NCBI GenBank assembly: GCA_902586025.1
Contig: CACIFV010000002.1
Span: 62,001 to 126,000 of the forward strand
Length of the DNA: 64,000 bases
Direction: 5' to 3'
DNA from: an uncultured Pelagibacteraceae bacterium
Lineage (GTDB): Bacteria; Pseudomonadota; Alphaproteobacteria; Pelagibacterales; Pelagibacteraceae
The notes beneath the pieces are model-generated. The model was not told where the DNA came from. It saw nothing but the letters and a program-made list of their open reading frames with translations, and made no database searches. Position 1 is the first letter of the stretch, and the number at the start of each line of letters is the position of its first letter. Below are positions 32,683 to 37,439 of this stretch, piece after piece. Both the position numbers and the translations under genes were made by a program.

Positions 32683-32711
32683 AAATTAGCTGATAAAGCT
32701 GTATTTCTTAA

Positions 32712-33911
32712 ATGAAAAAAAAGAAAAAAAAACCTAAAAAAAAAAAAATAAAAATAAAGGTTAAAAAATCAAAAAATAGATCCAAGTTAAAATTTAAAAA
32801 AAAAAAATCACAATTTAAAAAAAAAAAATTTAAATTAAAAAAAAAAACGACAAAAAGATTAAACCAAAGAAAAAAAATTAAAAAAGTTAAAAAAAAGATA
32901 ATTCCTGAAAAGGGTATAATTTCAAGAACAGTTAGACTTGAGGAAGATTTAAAAAATAAGTTTTCTTTCAAATTTAATTTTAATTTACTGGCTATAGATA
33001 AATTAATACAAAAGTTTTTTCAAAGTATAGAATTTAGATTAATTCGTTTTAAAGAGATAAGAGCTGAGGAAAAAAGACAAATTAAACTAGAGAAAATAGA
33101 ACAGACAGAAAAAGAAAAAATCGAAATTGAGAAACAAAAGAAAGCAGATGAAGCAGCTTTTTTAAAAGAAAAGGAAATCCAGTTAAAACAAGAGCAAAAA
33201 TTAGAAAGAGAAAGAGCAAAGGATATAAAATTATTTTTAAAAAAAGAACAAGCCATACTAAGAAAAGAGCAGGCGGAGAGACAAAAGAAATTTTTACAAG
33301 AATTAAAATTAGAAAAACAAATCGAAAAATTTAGAATAAGAGAGGTAAAAGAACTAGAACAACTAGAAAAATTAGCTTTAAGAGAAAAGAGAGAGGATTA
33401 TTCAGGATTACAAGAGCGTATCGAAAAACTAAAATTAAAATATCAACAAATAAGAGATCAAAAAATAAGAGAACGAGTTGAGGCGCTAGGTGTAGAAACA
33501 CAAGAAGGAGACGATAGAGCAAAATTACTTCAAAGAGAAAGAGAGTATAATTTAGCTAGGCAAAAAATTGAGTTTGCACTTGAAAGTTTTTATAGAAGTG
33601 CGAATAGTTTAGTTTTTCAACTTAATAAAAGATATATAACTAAACATATGTCTATCTTGAGATGCATAGATAGAAGATTTGAAACTGGAGAGATTTTTAT
33701 AAAATGGGATGAAACAATTGATGATGATTGGTTAATACTAATTTATATTAAAGATAATTCTCCAGACGAAGGTATAGTCATTGAAGATAAAACAAATGAA
33801 GAAAAAAATATTTCACATGAATTTAAACCAAGCGAAATTTTTAAAGCGTCAGATTTAATGGTAGATTCATTAACGCAGCTGATTGCAAAAAAAAGATCTA
33901 AGAATAATTAA
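32712..33911 (+). CDS. Lysine-rich coiled-coil protein of unknown function
   Basis: 399 residues, not recognised. Residues 1-60 are almost only Lys with some Ile/Phe/Leu/Arg/Ser (opening MKKKKKKPKKKK), strongly basic. Residues about 105-270 are charged helix (Glu/Lys/Arg/Gln heptad-like), a predicted long coiled coil. Residues about 275-385 look folded: SFYRSANSLVFQLNKRY, CIDRRFETGEIFIKWDETIDDDW and LIYIKDNSPDEGIVIED, with clear hydrophobic patterning. So the N-terminus may bind nucleic acid or acidic surfaces, while the C-terminal domain is unknown. The whole frame is open with normal codons in the folded part, so it is likely a real gene. Stop overlaps the convergent TPR gene by 4 bases. 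Confidence 0.75.
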   Translation: MKKKKKKPKKKKIKIKVKKSKNRSKLKFKKKKSQFKKKKFKLKKKTTKRLNQRKKIKKVKKKIIPEKGIISRTVRLEEDLKNKFSFKFNFNLLAIDKLIQKFFQSIEFRLIRFKEIRAEEKRQIKLEKIEQTEKEKIEIEKQKKADEAAFLKEKEIQLKQEQKLERERAKDIKLFLKKEQAILRKEQAERQKKFLQELKLEKQIEKFRIREVKELEQLEKLALREKREDYSGLQERIEKLKLKYQQIRDQKIRERVEALGVETQEGDDRAKLLQREREYNLARQKIEFALESFYRSANSLVFQLNKRYITKHMSILRCIDRRFETGEIFIKWDETIDDDWLILIYIKDNSPDEGIVIEDKTNEEKNISHEFKPSEIFKASDLMVDSLTQLIAKKRSKNN

Positions 33912-34456
33912 ATTTGTTGGTCTTTGATAATTTTTTCTATTAACTTAATATTTTCTCCACTTTTTATTAATGGATAAATAGATTTTGCTTTTCTTAGGTC
34001 ATCAACTGCCTTTTCATATTCCTTTAAGCTTAAGTATATTTGCGCTCGTCCGGATAATGCTCCAAAATGTCTTGGCTCTAGATCTAAAACTTTCTCAATA
34101 TCATCTAATGATTTCTCATAATCACCTAATATAAATAGTAATGTCGCTCGTTTATTCCAACCTTCTGCCCATTTAGGGTCCTCATTAATCACATCTGTAA
34201 ATAGTTTTAATGCCATTCTATACTTCTGATGGTACATGGAATAAGTTCCGTTCTCTAATTTGTTCGTCAGATAATCATTGTTTGGATGTCTTGTCCAATT
34301 ATTCCAAATTTGATCCTCTAGCTTTTCTGCTTGTTGTAAATTTTTTGCATTAAGCAATTCTTTAAACAATATATTTAAATTGTCCGAATACACATTATTT
34401 GTACTGATAAATAAAAATATAATTATAAAACTTATATATTTTTTAATCACTGACAT
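33908..34456 (-). CDS. Secreted TPR-repeat protein
   Basis: 182 residues: signal peptide about 1-24 (FIIIFLFISTNNVYS), then two to three TPR units, e.g. YRMALKLFTDVINEDPKWAEG, GDYEKSLDDIEKVLDLEPRHFG and KEYEKAVDDLRKAKSIYPL. Likely a periplasmic scaffold; no specific function recognised. Its start overlaps the end of the upstream regulator gene by 14 bases, so the two are probably co-transcribed. Confidence 0.82.
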   Translation of the reverse strand: MSVIKKYISFIIIFLFISTNNVYSDNLNILFKELLNAKNLQQAEKLEDQIWNNWTRHPNNDYLTNKLENGTYSMYHQKYRMALKLFTDVINEDPKWAEGWNKRATLLFILGDYEKSLDDIEKVLDLEPRHFGALSGRAQIYLSLKEYEKAVDDLRKAKSIYPLIKSGENIKLIEKIIKDQQI

Positions 34457-35867
34457 ATACAGATACTCCTCTTGAATTAATGTCTACATCAAATTTTTTA
34501 TGTAATGGTGGAAAAGCTCTTTGAGAACAATCCAGTCTATCACAAGTTCTACATGAAACCCCTACAGGTATCTCTGATTTTTTATCATTCAAATCTAAGT
34601 TTTCAGTATAAACAAAATCTTTTGCATATTTGGCTTCACATCCAAGTCCAATAGATAACATGCTTTTTTTTTGTCCATATCTTCCTATACCTTTTTCAAC
34701 TGTTCTTGCTATACATACATACTTTTCACCATTAGTCATTTTACTTACTGCTGCCTGTATAACACCAGGTCTAGAAAAAGCTGAATACACATTCCATCGA
34801 GGACAAGCACCACCATAACGTGGTATTTCAATGCCTGATAATGAAAATCGTTTTGAAATATTACCAGCGACATCAACTCTCAAAAAATGAAAAGGAACTC
34901 CAGGTAATTTTGGATCATTCAAACATGTTACTCTATGTGTGACTTGTTCAAATGAAGTTGCAAAAGTATTTTGCAATAACTCCAAATCATATTTAAGTTT
35001 TTTACATTCAGAATGAAATAATTTGTAGGGCATTAAAATTGCTGCACCGCAATAATTTAATAAAGCAACTTTTGTTAATTTTTTCGATTCTTCATTTGGA
35101 TAATTAAAAGTATCAAGATAAGAATTTATTATATCACTAGCTCCCTCTTGTACAATTTGAGCCGCAGCATGTAATTTTTTTGTTTCCAAAGACAAATAAT
35201 CAGACAATAGCAACTTTCTATTTTTGTTATCGTAAATTTTTGAAAAGGGTTTTCCTTCCTCAGGAATTATATCTTGCACTTCAATTTTATACTCTGATTT
35301 TAAATAATCACATAAAGCAATATACCTTGTTCTATTATTTTGTTTTATTTGTTCAAAGATTTGATTTGCAAATTCCTCTAGTTTTGGAAAAAAATTTCTA
35401 TTTTCTTGCAAAAAATCTGAAATTACTTCTCCAGGAAATGAGTTTTTTCTATTATCTACAATTTTTCCTGAAAGTTTTTCAATTTTATTAACCAATTCAT
35501 GATCTTTTTTTTTCAAAATGTCTCCTAATCTTATTAGAGCCTTACCAATTTTTGGATTGCTATTTGCTAGATCTTTAACTTCTGGACCAACTATATCCAA
35601 ATCTTCAAAAAGTTGATCATCAAGCAATTCTGAAATTGTGTTGACCATATTGATATCTGATTTATTTGTTAGATCGCTAATGTTGATGCTTAACTCCTCA
35701 CAAATTTTTAAAAGTAATTCCCCGTCAATTTTTCTTTTACCTCCCTCGATTAAAGCTAAATAACTCGGTGAAATGTTAAGTTGTGAGGCTAGTTTGTTTG
35801 CCTGCATGCCTAGCTGTCTTCTAAAAGCTTTTATTTTTGGCCCAATATTTAATTCTACTTGACTCAT
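34443..35867 (-). CDS. ScfR/RamB-type transcriptional regulator (XRE HTH + IrrE-like + DUF2083)
   Basis: 474 residues. N-terminal Cro/C1 helix-turn-helix about 10-65 (LGMQANKLASQLNISPSYLA), a linker, an IrrE/ImmA-like domain about 150-310 in which the metal-binding HExxH is degenerate (LHAAAQIVQE), and DUF2083 at the C-terminus with a cysteine-rich GVSCRTCDRLDCSQRAFPP. This architecture defines the short-chain fatty acyl regulators: RamB controls aceA/aceB in Corynebacterium glutamicum, ScfR controls glyoxylate bypass or propionate genes in other bacteria. Divergent from aceA (isocitrate lyase), which supports that role. Multiple TTTGTAAA elements lie just before its start. Confidence 0.88.
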   Translation of the reverse strand: MSQVELNIGPKIKAFRRQLGMQANKLASQLNISPSYLALIEGGKRKIDGELLLKICEELSINISDLTNKSDINMVNTISELLDDQLFEDLDIVGPEVKDLANSNPKIGKALIRLGDILKKKDHELVNKIEKLSGKIVDNRKNSFPGEVISDFLQENRNFFPKLEEFANQIFEQIKQNNRTRYIALCDYLKSEYKIEVQDIIPEEGKPFSKIYDNKNRKLLLSDYLSLETKKLHAAAQIVQEGASDIINSYLDTFNYPNEESKKLTKVALLNYCGAAILMPYKLFHSECKKLKYDLELLQNTFATSFEQVTHRVTCLNDPKLPGVPFHFLRVDVAGNISKRFSLSGIEIPRYGGACPRWNVYSAFSRPGVIQAAVSKMTNGEKYVCIARTVEKGIGRYGQKKSMLSIGLGCEAKYAKDFVYTENLDLNDKKSEIPVGVSCRTCDRLDCSQRAFPPLHKKFDVDINSRGVSVYVSD

Positions 35868-35873
35868 TTACTA

Positions 35874-35978
35874 TTTGTAAACTTTGTAAATTATTATTTA
35901 CAAAAAATTTATTGTATTTACTAGCTTTTTAACATTTTTTGTAGATTTTGTAAATATTGTAAATTATAAAGTTTACAT
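35874..35978. promoter_or_regulatory. Cluster of TTTGTAAA operator-like repeats, 9-base spacing
   Basis: Seen directly: TTTGTAAA at 35874-35881 and 35883-35890 (9-base step), inverted TTTACAAA at 35897-35904, then TTTGTAGA (35938-35945), TTTGTAAA (35947-35954) and ATTGTAAA (35956-35963), again at 9-base steps. A further partial inverted element GTTTACAT sits at 35971-35978. The second copy in context reads AAACTTTGTAAA, one base from the RamB operator AACTTTGCAAA as I recall it. The first block lies 6 bases from the regulator's start, so autoregulation is likely. Binding inferred, not shown. Confidence 0.65.
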
Positions 35979-36138
35979 GGACAAAAATACTATAAAAAAC
36001 ATTGAAACTAGTTCTCAAACTACAAATCACCAAGAGCACCAAGAGCATAGAAGCAGAGGGGTTTATTTAAGAGATGACCACTGCGATTGGGGATCAAGTG
36101 GAATGAATGAGTTTACAGAAGAATATAACGAAAAGTAA
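35977..36138 (+). CDS. Small ORF upstream of aceA, 53 residues
   Basis: ATG at 35977 to TAA at 36138, 53 residues, preceding aceA by 26 bases on the same strand. N-terminal half is polar (Asn/Gln/Thr/Glu/His repeats QEHQEH), then the compact C-terminal [20 protein letters not shown], which looks conserved-domain-like. No Shine-Dalgarno precedes it; the ATG is next to the repeats. Family not recognised. Could be a leader peptide, a small regulatory protein or metal-binding peptide (His/Cys/Asp), or a chance frame. Confidence 0.5.
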
Positions 36139-36152
36139 AAAGAATTAGTTTT

Positions 36153-36160
36153 AAAGGAGG
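36153..36160 (+). promoter_or_regulatory. Strong Shine-Dalgarno of aceA
   Basis: AAAGGAGG, 4 bases before the aceA ATG at 36165. Most genes in this window lack such a site, so high translation of aceA when transcribed is implied. Confidence 0.8.
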
Positions 36161-36164
36161 AATA

Positions 36165-37439
36165 ATGTCAGCCGAGAAAATCTCGTACGAGTTGAAAAGA
36201 TTTGCAGGAATACAAAGGGATTATAAGCCAGAAGAAGTAGAAAGGTTAAGAGGATCCATTAAAATTGAGTATTCAATGTGTAAACAGCAATCTCAAAAGC
36301 TCTGGAGATTGTTAAATACAGAGCCATATGTAAACACGCTTGGATCTTTGTCGGGAAACCAAGCCGTTCAACATGCAAAAGCAGGTTTAAAAGCGATTTA
36401 TTTAAGTGGTTGGCAAGTTGCAGCAGACGCAAACAGTGCTGGTGAAATGTATCCTGATCAATCTTTATATCCTTACGACAGTGCACCTAAATTAGTTGAG
36501 TCTATGAATAATTCTTTAATTAGAGCCGATCAAATTCAGCATATGGAAATAGCAGATGGAGATATGAATAGCAGCGAAAGAACCGACTACATGTTGCCAA
36601 TTATTGCAGATGGCGAGGCAGGATTTGGTGGACCGTTAAATGTATTTGAGCTAACAAAAAAATTTATAAAAGCTGGCGCAGCCGGAGTTCATTTTGAAGA
36701 CCAACTAGCTAGTGAAAAAAAATGTGGACATATGGGCGGTAAGGTACTTGTTCCTACTGGAACCATGGTCCGAAATCTAAAAGCAGCAAGATTGGCAGCT
36801 GATATTGCCGACGTTCCTCTCATTATTCTTGCAAGAACAGATGCCAACGCTGCGAAACTAATTACAAACGATTTTGATGAAAATGACAAACCGTTTTTAA
36901 CAGGAGAAAGATCACCTGAAGGCTTTTATTATGTTAAAGATGGTATTGATCAAGCAATCTCAAGAGGGTTAGCTTATGCACCTTATGCGGATTTAATATG
37001 GTGTGAAACTGCAACACCTAATTTAGAAGAAGCAAAAAAATTTGCTGATGCAATACATGCAAAATTTCCTGGCAAGATGTTAGCTTATAATTGTTCTCCA
37101 TCATTTAATTGGAAGAAACATTTATCTGATGATGACATTGCAACATTTCAAACTAAAATTGGGATGATGGGGTATAAATTTCAATTTATAACTTTAGCAG
37201 GTTTCCATACGCAAAATATTGCTATTTTCGAGCTTGCAGAAAAGTATAAAAAGGAAGGTATGACTGCTTACTCTAGAATACAACAAAATGAATTTGCTAG
37301 AGAAAAAGATGGATATACCAGTGTTAAACATCAACGAGAAGTTGGGACTTCTTATTTTGATGCAGTTTCCAATACAATAAGTTCTGGAAAGAGCTCCACA
37401 ACAGCAATGGAAGGCTCTACAGAATCTGAGCAATTTTAA
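36165..37439 (+). CDS. aceA: Isocitrate lyase
   Basis: Splits isocitrate into glyoxylate and succinate, the first step of the glyoxylate bypass that lets cells grow on acetate or fatty acids. 424 residues, standard for bacterial enzymes. Visible: substrate-binding [20 protein letters not shown], catalytic [11 protein letters not shown] with the active-site Cys, RTDANAA, and NCSPSFNW. Under likely control by the divergent ScfR/RamB-type regulator. 3' end overlaps the convergent J-domain gene by 4 bases. Malate synthase is not in this window. Confidence 0.97.

Follow-up and report, generated by a model that had tools for sequence, protein, structure and literature searches.

Between a divergently transcribed ScfR-family regulator gene and the isocitrate lyase gene aceA, genomes of one SAR11 group carry a conserved array of six TTTGTAAA-type half-sites. 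A sequence-only reading of the same DNA had proposed the repeats as the regulator's operator; their conservation, their restriction to this locus and the enrichment of half-sites at related ScfR loci bear this out to the point that they are probably its operator. With a probability of about 0.7, we propose a local autoregulatory ScfR switch, in which the regulator would repress both promoters through the six half-sites until an acyl-CoA ligand or the loss of an Fe-S cluster intervenes. Oligotrophs with reduced genomes are described in part of PMC13198564 as having relatively few transcriptional regulators. The locus described here offers a testable mechanism, with a regulator that has Fe-S-ligand cysteines, a well-defined candidate operator and one locus in the genomes searched.

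The half-site array

The window, that is, the whole stretch of 64,000 nucleotides analysed, covers G000:C2:62001-126000 of a genome that is 82.97% complete. The regulator gene (34443-35867, minus strand; 474 aa) and aceA (36165-37439, plus strand; 424 aa) form a divergent pair. The latter was identified as isocitrate lyase by PRK15063 (727.8 bits, cut-off 562), and its Shine-Dalgarno sequence was read as AAAGGAGG (36153-36160, plus strand). Elsewhere in the window, a 399-aa ORF with a very lysine-rich start (MKKKKKKPKKKKIKIK...) occupies 32712-33911, and a phenylalanine-rich ORF (32708-32971) lies antisense to it.

Exact copies of TTTGTAAA start at 35874, 35883 and 35947 on the plus strand and at 35897 on the minus strand, and ATTGTAAA follows at 35956. 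On the plus strand these are R1 (35874-35881), R2 (35883-35890, 9 bases past R1), R5 (35947-35954, placed by sequence and conservation) and R6 (35956-35963, 9 bases past R5). R3 (35897-35904, minus strand) is inverted and reads TTTACAAA on the plus strand. A second inverted half-site, R4 (35917-35924, minus strand), was overlooked by the sequence-only reading; the copy in the window's species is degenerate (TTTACTAG on the plus strand), and the majority form is TTTACAAG in 31 representative regions less than 85% identical to one another. The GTAAA core of R1 and the TTTAC of R3 are present in 31/31 representatives.

Sequence and coordinates of the repeats had been given correctly in the sequence-only reading. 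Its third downstream copy, TTTGTAGA at 35938, is present but is not kept as a half-site, with G at 35941 in 20/31 and G instead of A at 35944 in 30/31 representatives. Conservation at this place belongs to an extra element (35941-35946, plus strand; T in 31/31 at 35942, G in 30/31 at 35944), which is not a TTTGTAAA half-site and possibly has a -35 or UP role. The likeness of the second copy to a RamB operator (AAACTTTGTAAA), put at one base off, hangs on C35882 and is lost in most relatives, as 27/31 representatives have T there. Finally, the region had been taken as intergenic; it holds the repeats and also a conserved 53-aa ORF.

The number of exact half-sites, four, compares with a mean of 0.15 after dinucleotide shuffling of the intergenic DNA, and none of 5000 shuffles reached four. 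Likewise, the two tandem pairs with a 9-base step were reached in 0/5000 dinucleotide shuffles. The word TTTGTAAA is not enriched in the whole window (20 found, 17.09 expected); its clustering, not its frequency, is the special trait. The lack of window-wide enrichment, together with the overlap of some half-sites with -35- or -10-like positions, would suit an origin by chance or as merely AT-rich promoter sequence. Such an origin is exceedingly improbable and was rejected on the shuffles, the near-fixed spacing and the box conservation.

For conservation, 150 loci were taken, 146 of which had both the regulator start and aceA (L025, L026, L027 and L029 did not). With four sister-genus loci (L142-L145) excluded, the remaining 142 loci comprised 132 distinct intergenic regions; some genomes had been fetched twice, and 31 loci (L111-L141) stand outside the counts. 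All six cores matched in 131 of the 132 distinct regions of this SAR11 group, one free base being allowed in the R2 core; in the exception, L157, the R1 core is altered. The core-to-core steps were 9 (R1-R2), 11 (R2-R3), 20 (R3-R4), 33 in 115 regions or 34 in 16 (R4-R5) and 9 (R5-R6). Counted between box starts they are 9, 14, 20, 30 or 31, and 9, so that only the distance between R4 and R5 has a play of one base. Across the 31 representatives the boxes were 91-99% conserved (R5 96%, R6 91%), against 72% for the spacers. An array whose length is held while its sequence drifts is characteristic of a defined protein-DNA complex. Comparison with relatives had been suggested along with the sequence-only reading, and both the repeats and the 9-base step were kept.

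The four sister-genus loci all have ATTTACAAGC at the R4 position. Additionally, L142 and L143 have a downstream GTAAA pair at a 9-base step, and one member of this pair is intact in L144 and L145.

The exact tandem pattern WTTGTAAAYWTTGTAAA was scanned in 11 genomes, 10 of the same genus and G061 of another genus, alongside a reversed-pattern control. The pattern was present in 8/11 genomes and the control in none of the 11. Seven of the 10 same-genus genomes had a match, and in these no match fell outside the regulator-aceA intergenic region; G061 had two matches at the locus and one inside an ORF that looked lpxB-like by eye. The exact pattern was absent from G062, G074 and G091, and its absence from G062, which does have the locus, counts against the switch model. 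With up to two mismatches, matches elsewhere were close to the level of the reversed control, and no regulon is claimed on such counts; weaker targets may exist elsewhere, given that mismatch matches lie near background. One-mismatch matches do occur elsewhere in the window's genome (e.g. G000:C4:32747), and another, G000:C1:216548, was dropped as a further target because it lies inside a membrane-protein-like ORF. A genome-wide check at acs, glcB and prpC had also been suggested; in the same-genus genomes that have the exact pattern, the scan indicated no second target. In the genomes searched, the array looks like that of a single-locus autoregulatory switch.

The regulator and its relatives

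The regulator carries an HTH domain at residues 12-66 (HTH_3, E 2.5e-9), an IrrE-like domain at 212-313 (Peptidase_M78, E 2.6e-8) and a ScfRs domain at 316-471 (PF09856, E 2.3e-59), each above the Pfam cut-off. The protein had been called RamB/ScfR-type. Its membership of the ScfR family and its divergence from aceA stand; the NCBIfam RamB model NF038139 gave 358.8 bits against a curated cut-off of 700, so that by this rule it does not count as a RamB equivalog. The relevant part of PMC10370305 sets class 2 RamB proteins apart from the Corynebacterium type.

The regulator aligned to M. tuberculosis PrpR structures (E 1.9e-62), with C355, C439, C442 and C447 at the [4Fe4S] ligand positions of PrpR as given in part of PMC6765138. 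Both cysteine motifs were found in 135/136 complete regulators (109 distinct sequences); in a wider class set, 29/29 loci had all four cysteines, which indicates a family trait and not a SAR11 invention. The regulator probably carries an Fe-S cluster; it also probably binds a CoA-ester ligand. In one genome (G174:C2:118297-119719) the regulator was matched as two overlapping pieces (residues 1-406 and 396-474), possibly through a frameshift or assembly error.

The class set comprised 289 genomes, 63 of which had a regulator match at E up to 1e-60, and gave at least 30 loci, 27 of them outside this family. An aceA match lay on the divergent side in 21/27 of these other alphaproteobacterial ScfR loci (one just 30% identical). 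Within 130 bases upstream of the 27 ScfR genes, TTTGTAAA, TTTACAAA or TTTGCAAA occurred 25 times against 1.2 expected, about 20-fold, and the largest count in 1000 shuffles was 6. The half-sites were spread over 14/27 loci, with none in 13, and a 9-step tandem was present in 4/27 (L200, L220, L221 and L225).

Some of these loci differ in gene content. At L200 (G338), a TTTACAAA tandem of 9-base step lies upstream of the related ScfR gene, and the locus contains no match to aceA; on its divergent side lie a short ORF and, by eye, an opposite-strand ORF resembling choline-dehydrogenase-type oxidoreductases. L211 and L213 share another small ORF (MQDQNNRT.PPQEDYCTIIAPSMAEAMRQFTARGLDREGYSIAGRVGRH...) in the divergent region, between regulator and aceA.

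Two in-frame tandem HTH domains, 88-91 residues apart, were found at the regulator start in 18/146 loci (L015, L019, L020, L022, L023, L024, L085, L089, L090, L091, L092, L101, L106, L159, L162, L172, L176 and L180); this kind makes up 15/136 complete regulators. In a tree of HTH domains, the first copies formed one clade (18/18, support 0.97) and the second copies another (16/16, support 0.95), which suggests one duplication. In a tree built from the remainder of the protein, double-HTH regulators were scattered among those with a single HTH, a pattern suggestive of spread by recombination. The double-HTH form is a natural regulator variant with two DNA-binding heads. An extended palindromic R4 (TTTACAAG[TC]AAA) was present in 13/13 double-HTH and 1/18 single-HTH representatives. 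A causal link between the two was considered and dropped: recombination that spread a single duplication could take the adjacent operator with it, and the extended R4 is found too in G061, an outgroup with a single HTH.

A small open reading frame ahead of aceA

An ORF of 53 codons (35977-36138, plus strand), overlooked by the sequence-only reading, lies between the array and aceA. A search of 147 genomes of the order detected the small protein in 68 and the regulator in 69 (both at E up to 0.001), and aceA in 70 (E up to 1e-50); comparison of the lists placed all three in 67 genomes. The exceptions were G126 (aceA and the small protein, no regulator), G130 (aceA only), G148 (a piece of the regulator only) and G065 (regulator and aceA without a match to the small protein). 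The small protein of G126 begins at contig base 158, so the regulator may fall off the contig there. All three were missing from nine same-genus genomes that are 92-98% complete (G074, G091, G112, G146, G150, G163, G175, G009 and G177). Hence small ORF, regulator and aceA are present or absent together in nearly all genomes searched. The regulator was also absent from 24/24 genomes of another family (f2) in a first search of relatives, and the small protein occurred in 3/289 class genomes, all of this family.

A scan of genome contigs gave 519 stretches encoding a relative, and the best 80 of the 519 were used. The C-terminal core is nearly invariant. Over 20 core codons, 79 distinct nucleotide versions gave 22 amino-acid versions, and most invariant residues were encoded by several codons. 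Over 15 core codons in 62 distinct versions, synonymous pairwise differences numbered 10313 and nonsynonymous ones 2300, the pairs not being independent. This codon variety and the excess of synonymous differences indicate selection on the protein. The core pattern was matched in 142/146 loci (unmatched in L143, L173, L177 and L180). No Pfam or NCBIfam family was matched by any of 12 small-protein members at E up to 1, and AlphaFold2, run with 12 sequences, gave no confident fold (mean pLDDT 57.8, pTM 0.15). The locus thus points to a conserved 53-residue protein outside Pfam and NCBIfam. Rfam gave no structured-RNA match in the window at gathering thresholds.

No Shine-Dalgarno-like word was present within 18 nt of the small-ORF ATG in 130 distinct regions (two of the 132, L062 and L085, are outside this pattern count). 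Such a word precedes aceA in 83/130 regions, an approximate figure because aceA starts were extrapolated from alignments. A probable -10 element, TTATAAA (35964-35970, plus strand), is placed by its near-constant distance to the ATG, which follows the conserved TATA by 8 nt in 117/130 distinct regions (11 nt in five, 2 or 9 nt in one each, at least 37 nt in six). This constancy, together with the lack of a Shine-Dalgarno word, suggests that the small-ORF mRNA is probably leaderless.

The small ORF is the first in its unit, short, probably leaderless and placed right before aceA, as might be expected of a leader or attenuator whose translation matters and not its product. The conservation of its core as protein makes this distinctly unlikely, and so does the occurrence of a related DWGxSG core in three of the four sister-genus loci (L142, L144 and L145), where a Shine-Dalgarno-like sequence stands ahead of the ORF. 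In two sister genera (L142 and L143), a second, different small ORF of the NIESNCVS... type occupies the same slot; G061 (L142) has both kinds.

Sign of regulation and known ScfR systems

We infer binding, the cluster, the ligand, the sign of regulation and the transcription start. The RamB/PrpR-type regulator would bind the six half-sites, arranged as two 9-base tandem pairs with two inverted sites between them, so that one pair stands at each promoter and the regulator controls its own gene as well as the divergent small-ORF-aceA unit. If transcription starts at the small-ORF ATG (35977), R5-R6 would lie at -30 to -14, where binding should block RNA polymerase; for this reason, a repressor of both promoters is proposed. 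R1-R3 would cover the likely promoter of the regulator, with R1 proposed to lie over its -10, and would provide self-repression. The regulator would be released by an acyl-CoA ligand or once its Fe-S cluster is lost, and both promoters would then be turned on.

Published P. ubique data touch on this model. The sequence-only reading had suggested an acyl-CoA/acetate switch; the P. ubique expression data consulted deal with iron and with light in carbon-starved cells. In the part of PMC2864753 that lists transcripts at least 50% higher under iron limitation, SAR11_1240 (aceA) rose 1.58-fold (p 0.091), SAR11_1242 ('Transcription regulator') 1.60-fold (p 0.054) and SAR11_1239 2.47-fold (p 0.006), with sfuABC adjoining. 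The joint rise of aceA and SAR11_1242, on weak statistics, fits derepression or the loss of an Fe-S repressor. We take G066 to be P. ubique HTCC1062: its gene order fits loci 1236-1242, the sfu genes being assigned from their order and by eye; its regulator lies at 1,184,000-1,185,421, and SAR11_1248/1249 at about 1,189,853 (PMC2704228, in part). The small ORF would then be SAR11_1241, a tag missing from the iron table of PMC2864753 as far as that source was available and not found in the literature searched. In the accessible passages of PMC2704228, on structured RNAs of P. ubique, mentions of isocitrate, aceA, SAR11_124 and glyoxylate concern other loci. Downstream of aceA in G066 (L196/L240), sfuC-sfuB-sfuA lie on the same strand; this order was found in 1/16 genomes over about 5.6 kb and was dropped as support for a role of iron.

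Expression of isocitrate lyase per SAR11 cell is given as higher in iron-limited water in passages of PMC6618146, with reference to Beier et al. 2015, community-level transcripts being without such a pattern. In the part of PMC11069385 concerned, the glyoxylate-shunt genes named as iron-responsive belonged to Alteromonadales, and the response of SAR11 was in genes of iron transport, so that the iron reading is not supported there. Moreover, a phosphoproteome study reported insignificant abundance changes across conditions for most enzymes of both cycles, including the glyoxylate cycle (PMC13198564, in part). Expression of SAR11_1242 was higher in light when cells were starved of carbon, and relaxed 'Fur-like' repeats were noted upstream of it and of other genes (PMC3090418, 2011, in part). 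That work may have noticed the present repeats under another name, as its tandem-plus-inverted definition would fit R1-R2-R3.

The repressor sign may be wrong, since both P. denitrificans RamB and M. tuberculosis PrpR activate. The regulator might instead activate aceA, with the liganded protein at R3-R4 (-80 to -53) recruiting polymerase and R5-R6 serving silencing or fine-tuning. R4 is close to a classical activator position. The R3-R4 step of 20 bases is constant in all 131 six-core regions, and P. denitrificans RamB, an activator, binds CoA esters (PMC10370305, in part). This alternative is possible but on the unlikely side: R5-R6 lie over the predicted core promoter and are among the conserved boxes, and joint derepression would explain the rise of both divergent genes in the P. 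ubique array no less well. A different objection would make the repeats iron boxes of the Fur or Irr type and not ScfR sites, in keeping with the 'Fur-like' motifs upstream of SAR11_1242 and with the rise of aceA and SAR11_1242 beside sfu genes under iron limitation. A globally used iron box would be expected again at iron genes, but in the same-genus genomes that have the exact pair it was found at this locus only; across the class, ScfR loci are enriched in these half-sites. The pair is also missing from G074 and G091, which lack regulator and aceA, though likewise from G062, which has both. We consider Fur or Irr boxes very unlikely.

Within the proposed repressor switch, the regulator could be a direct sensor of iron or Fe-S status, losing its cluster under iron stress, leaving the array and so turning on the small protein and isocitrate lyase, with the small protein modulating isocitrate lyase or the regulator. 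A comparable modulator logic is that of CP12 in the Calvin cycle. This extension is speculative and rather doubtful; if true, SAR11 would have a circuit confined to one locus for the glyoxylate shunt that iron reportedly drives in the ocean.

Among the literature matches listed, from a search with most subscription journals outside its coverage, neither a ScfR/RamB regulator in SAR11 nor the small protein was found; a 'ramb' match in PMC5069961 was an author name within a reference. According to the part of PMC10370305 available, P. denitrificans RamB, a class 2 ScfR, resembles the SAR11 regulator in family, in divergence from glyoxylate-cycle genes and in paired boxes. It differs in its activating role and in requiring two boxes of nearly the same sequence separated by an 18-bp spacer; the steps in the SAR11 array are 9, 14, 20, 30 or 31, and 9. 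Its operon consists of malate synthase followed by isocitrate lyase, and that part of the paper mentions no small ORF. R. sphaeroides PccR is likewise a ScfR and governs propionyl-CoA assimilation (as cited in parts of PMC6765138 and PMC10370305).

A close comparison is offered by M. tuberculosis, as described in part of PMC6765138. The PrpR operator consists of TTTGCAAA and TTTGCgAA one base pair apart and is also found upstream of icl1, so the 9-base step, which the sequence-only reading had taken as undescribed, was already known. Like PrpR and RamB of M. tuberculosis, the SAR11 protein is a ScfR with predicted CoA-binding and [4Fe4S] parts and has boxes one base pair apart, as in the 17 bp upstream of icl1. 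This 17-bp layout recurs in R1-R2 and R5-R6, at the 9-base step in 131/132 regions, with TTTGTAAA replacing TTTGCAAA. Unlike the PrpR operator, the SAR11 array has a C to T change in the box, two tandem pairs and two inverted sites, and its locus has a divergent promoter and an added small ORF; PrpR itself activates. The pocket differs as well. Phe155 sets the ligand choice of PrpR, M. tuberculosis RamB has His155, and characterised members have Phe, His, Trp or Tyr at this position (PMC6765138, in part), whereas the aligned SAR11 residue is Gly146, in a register taken from chain starts and not from a structural alignment.
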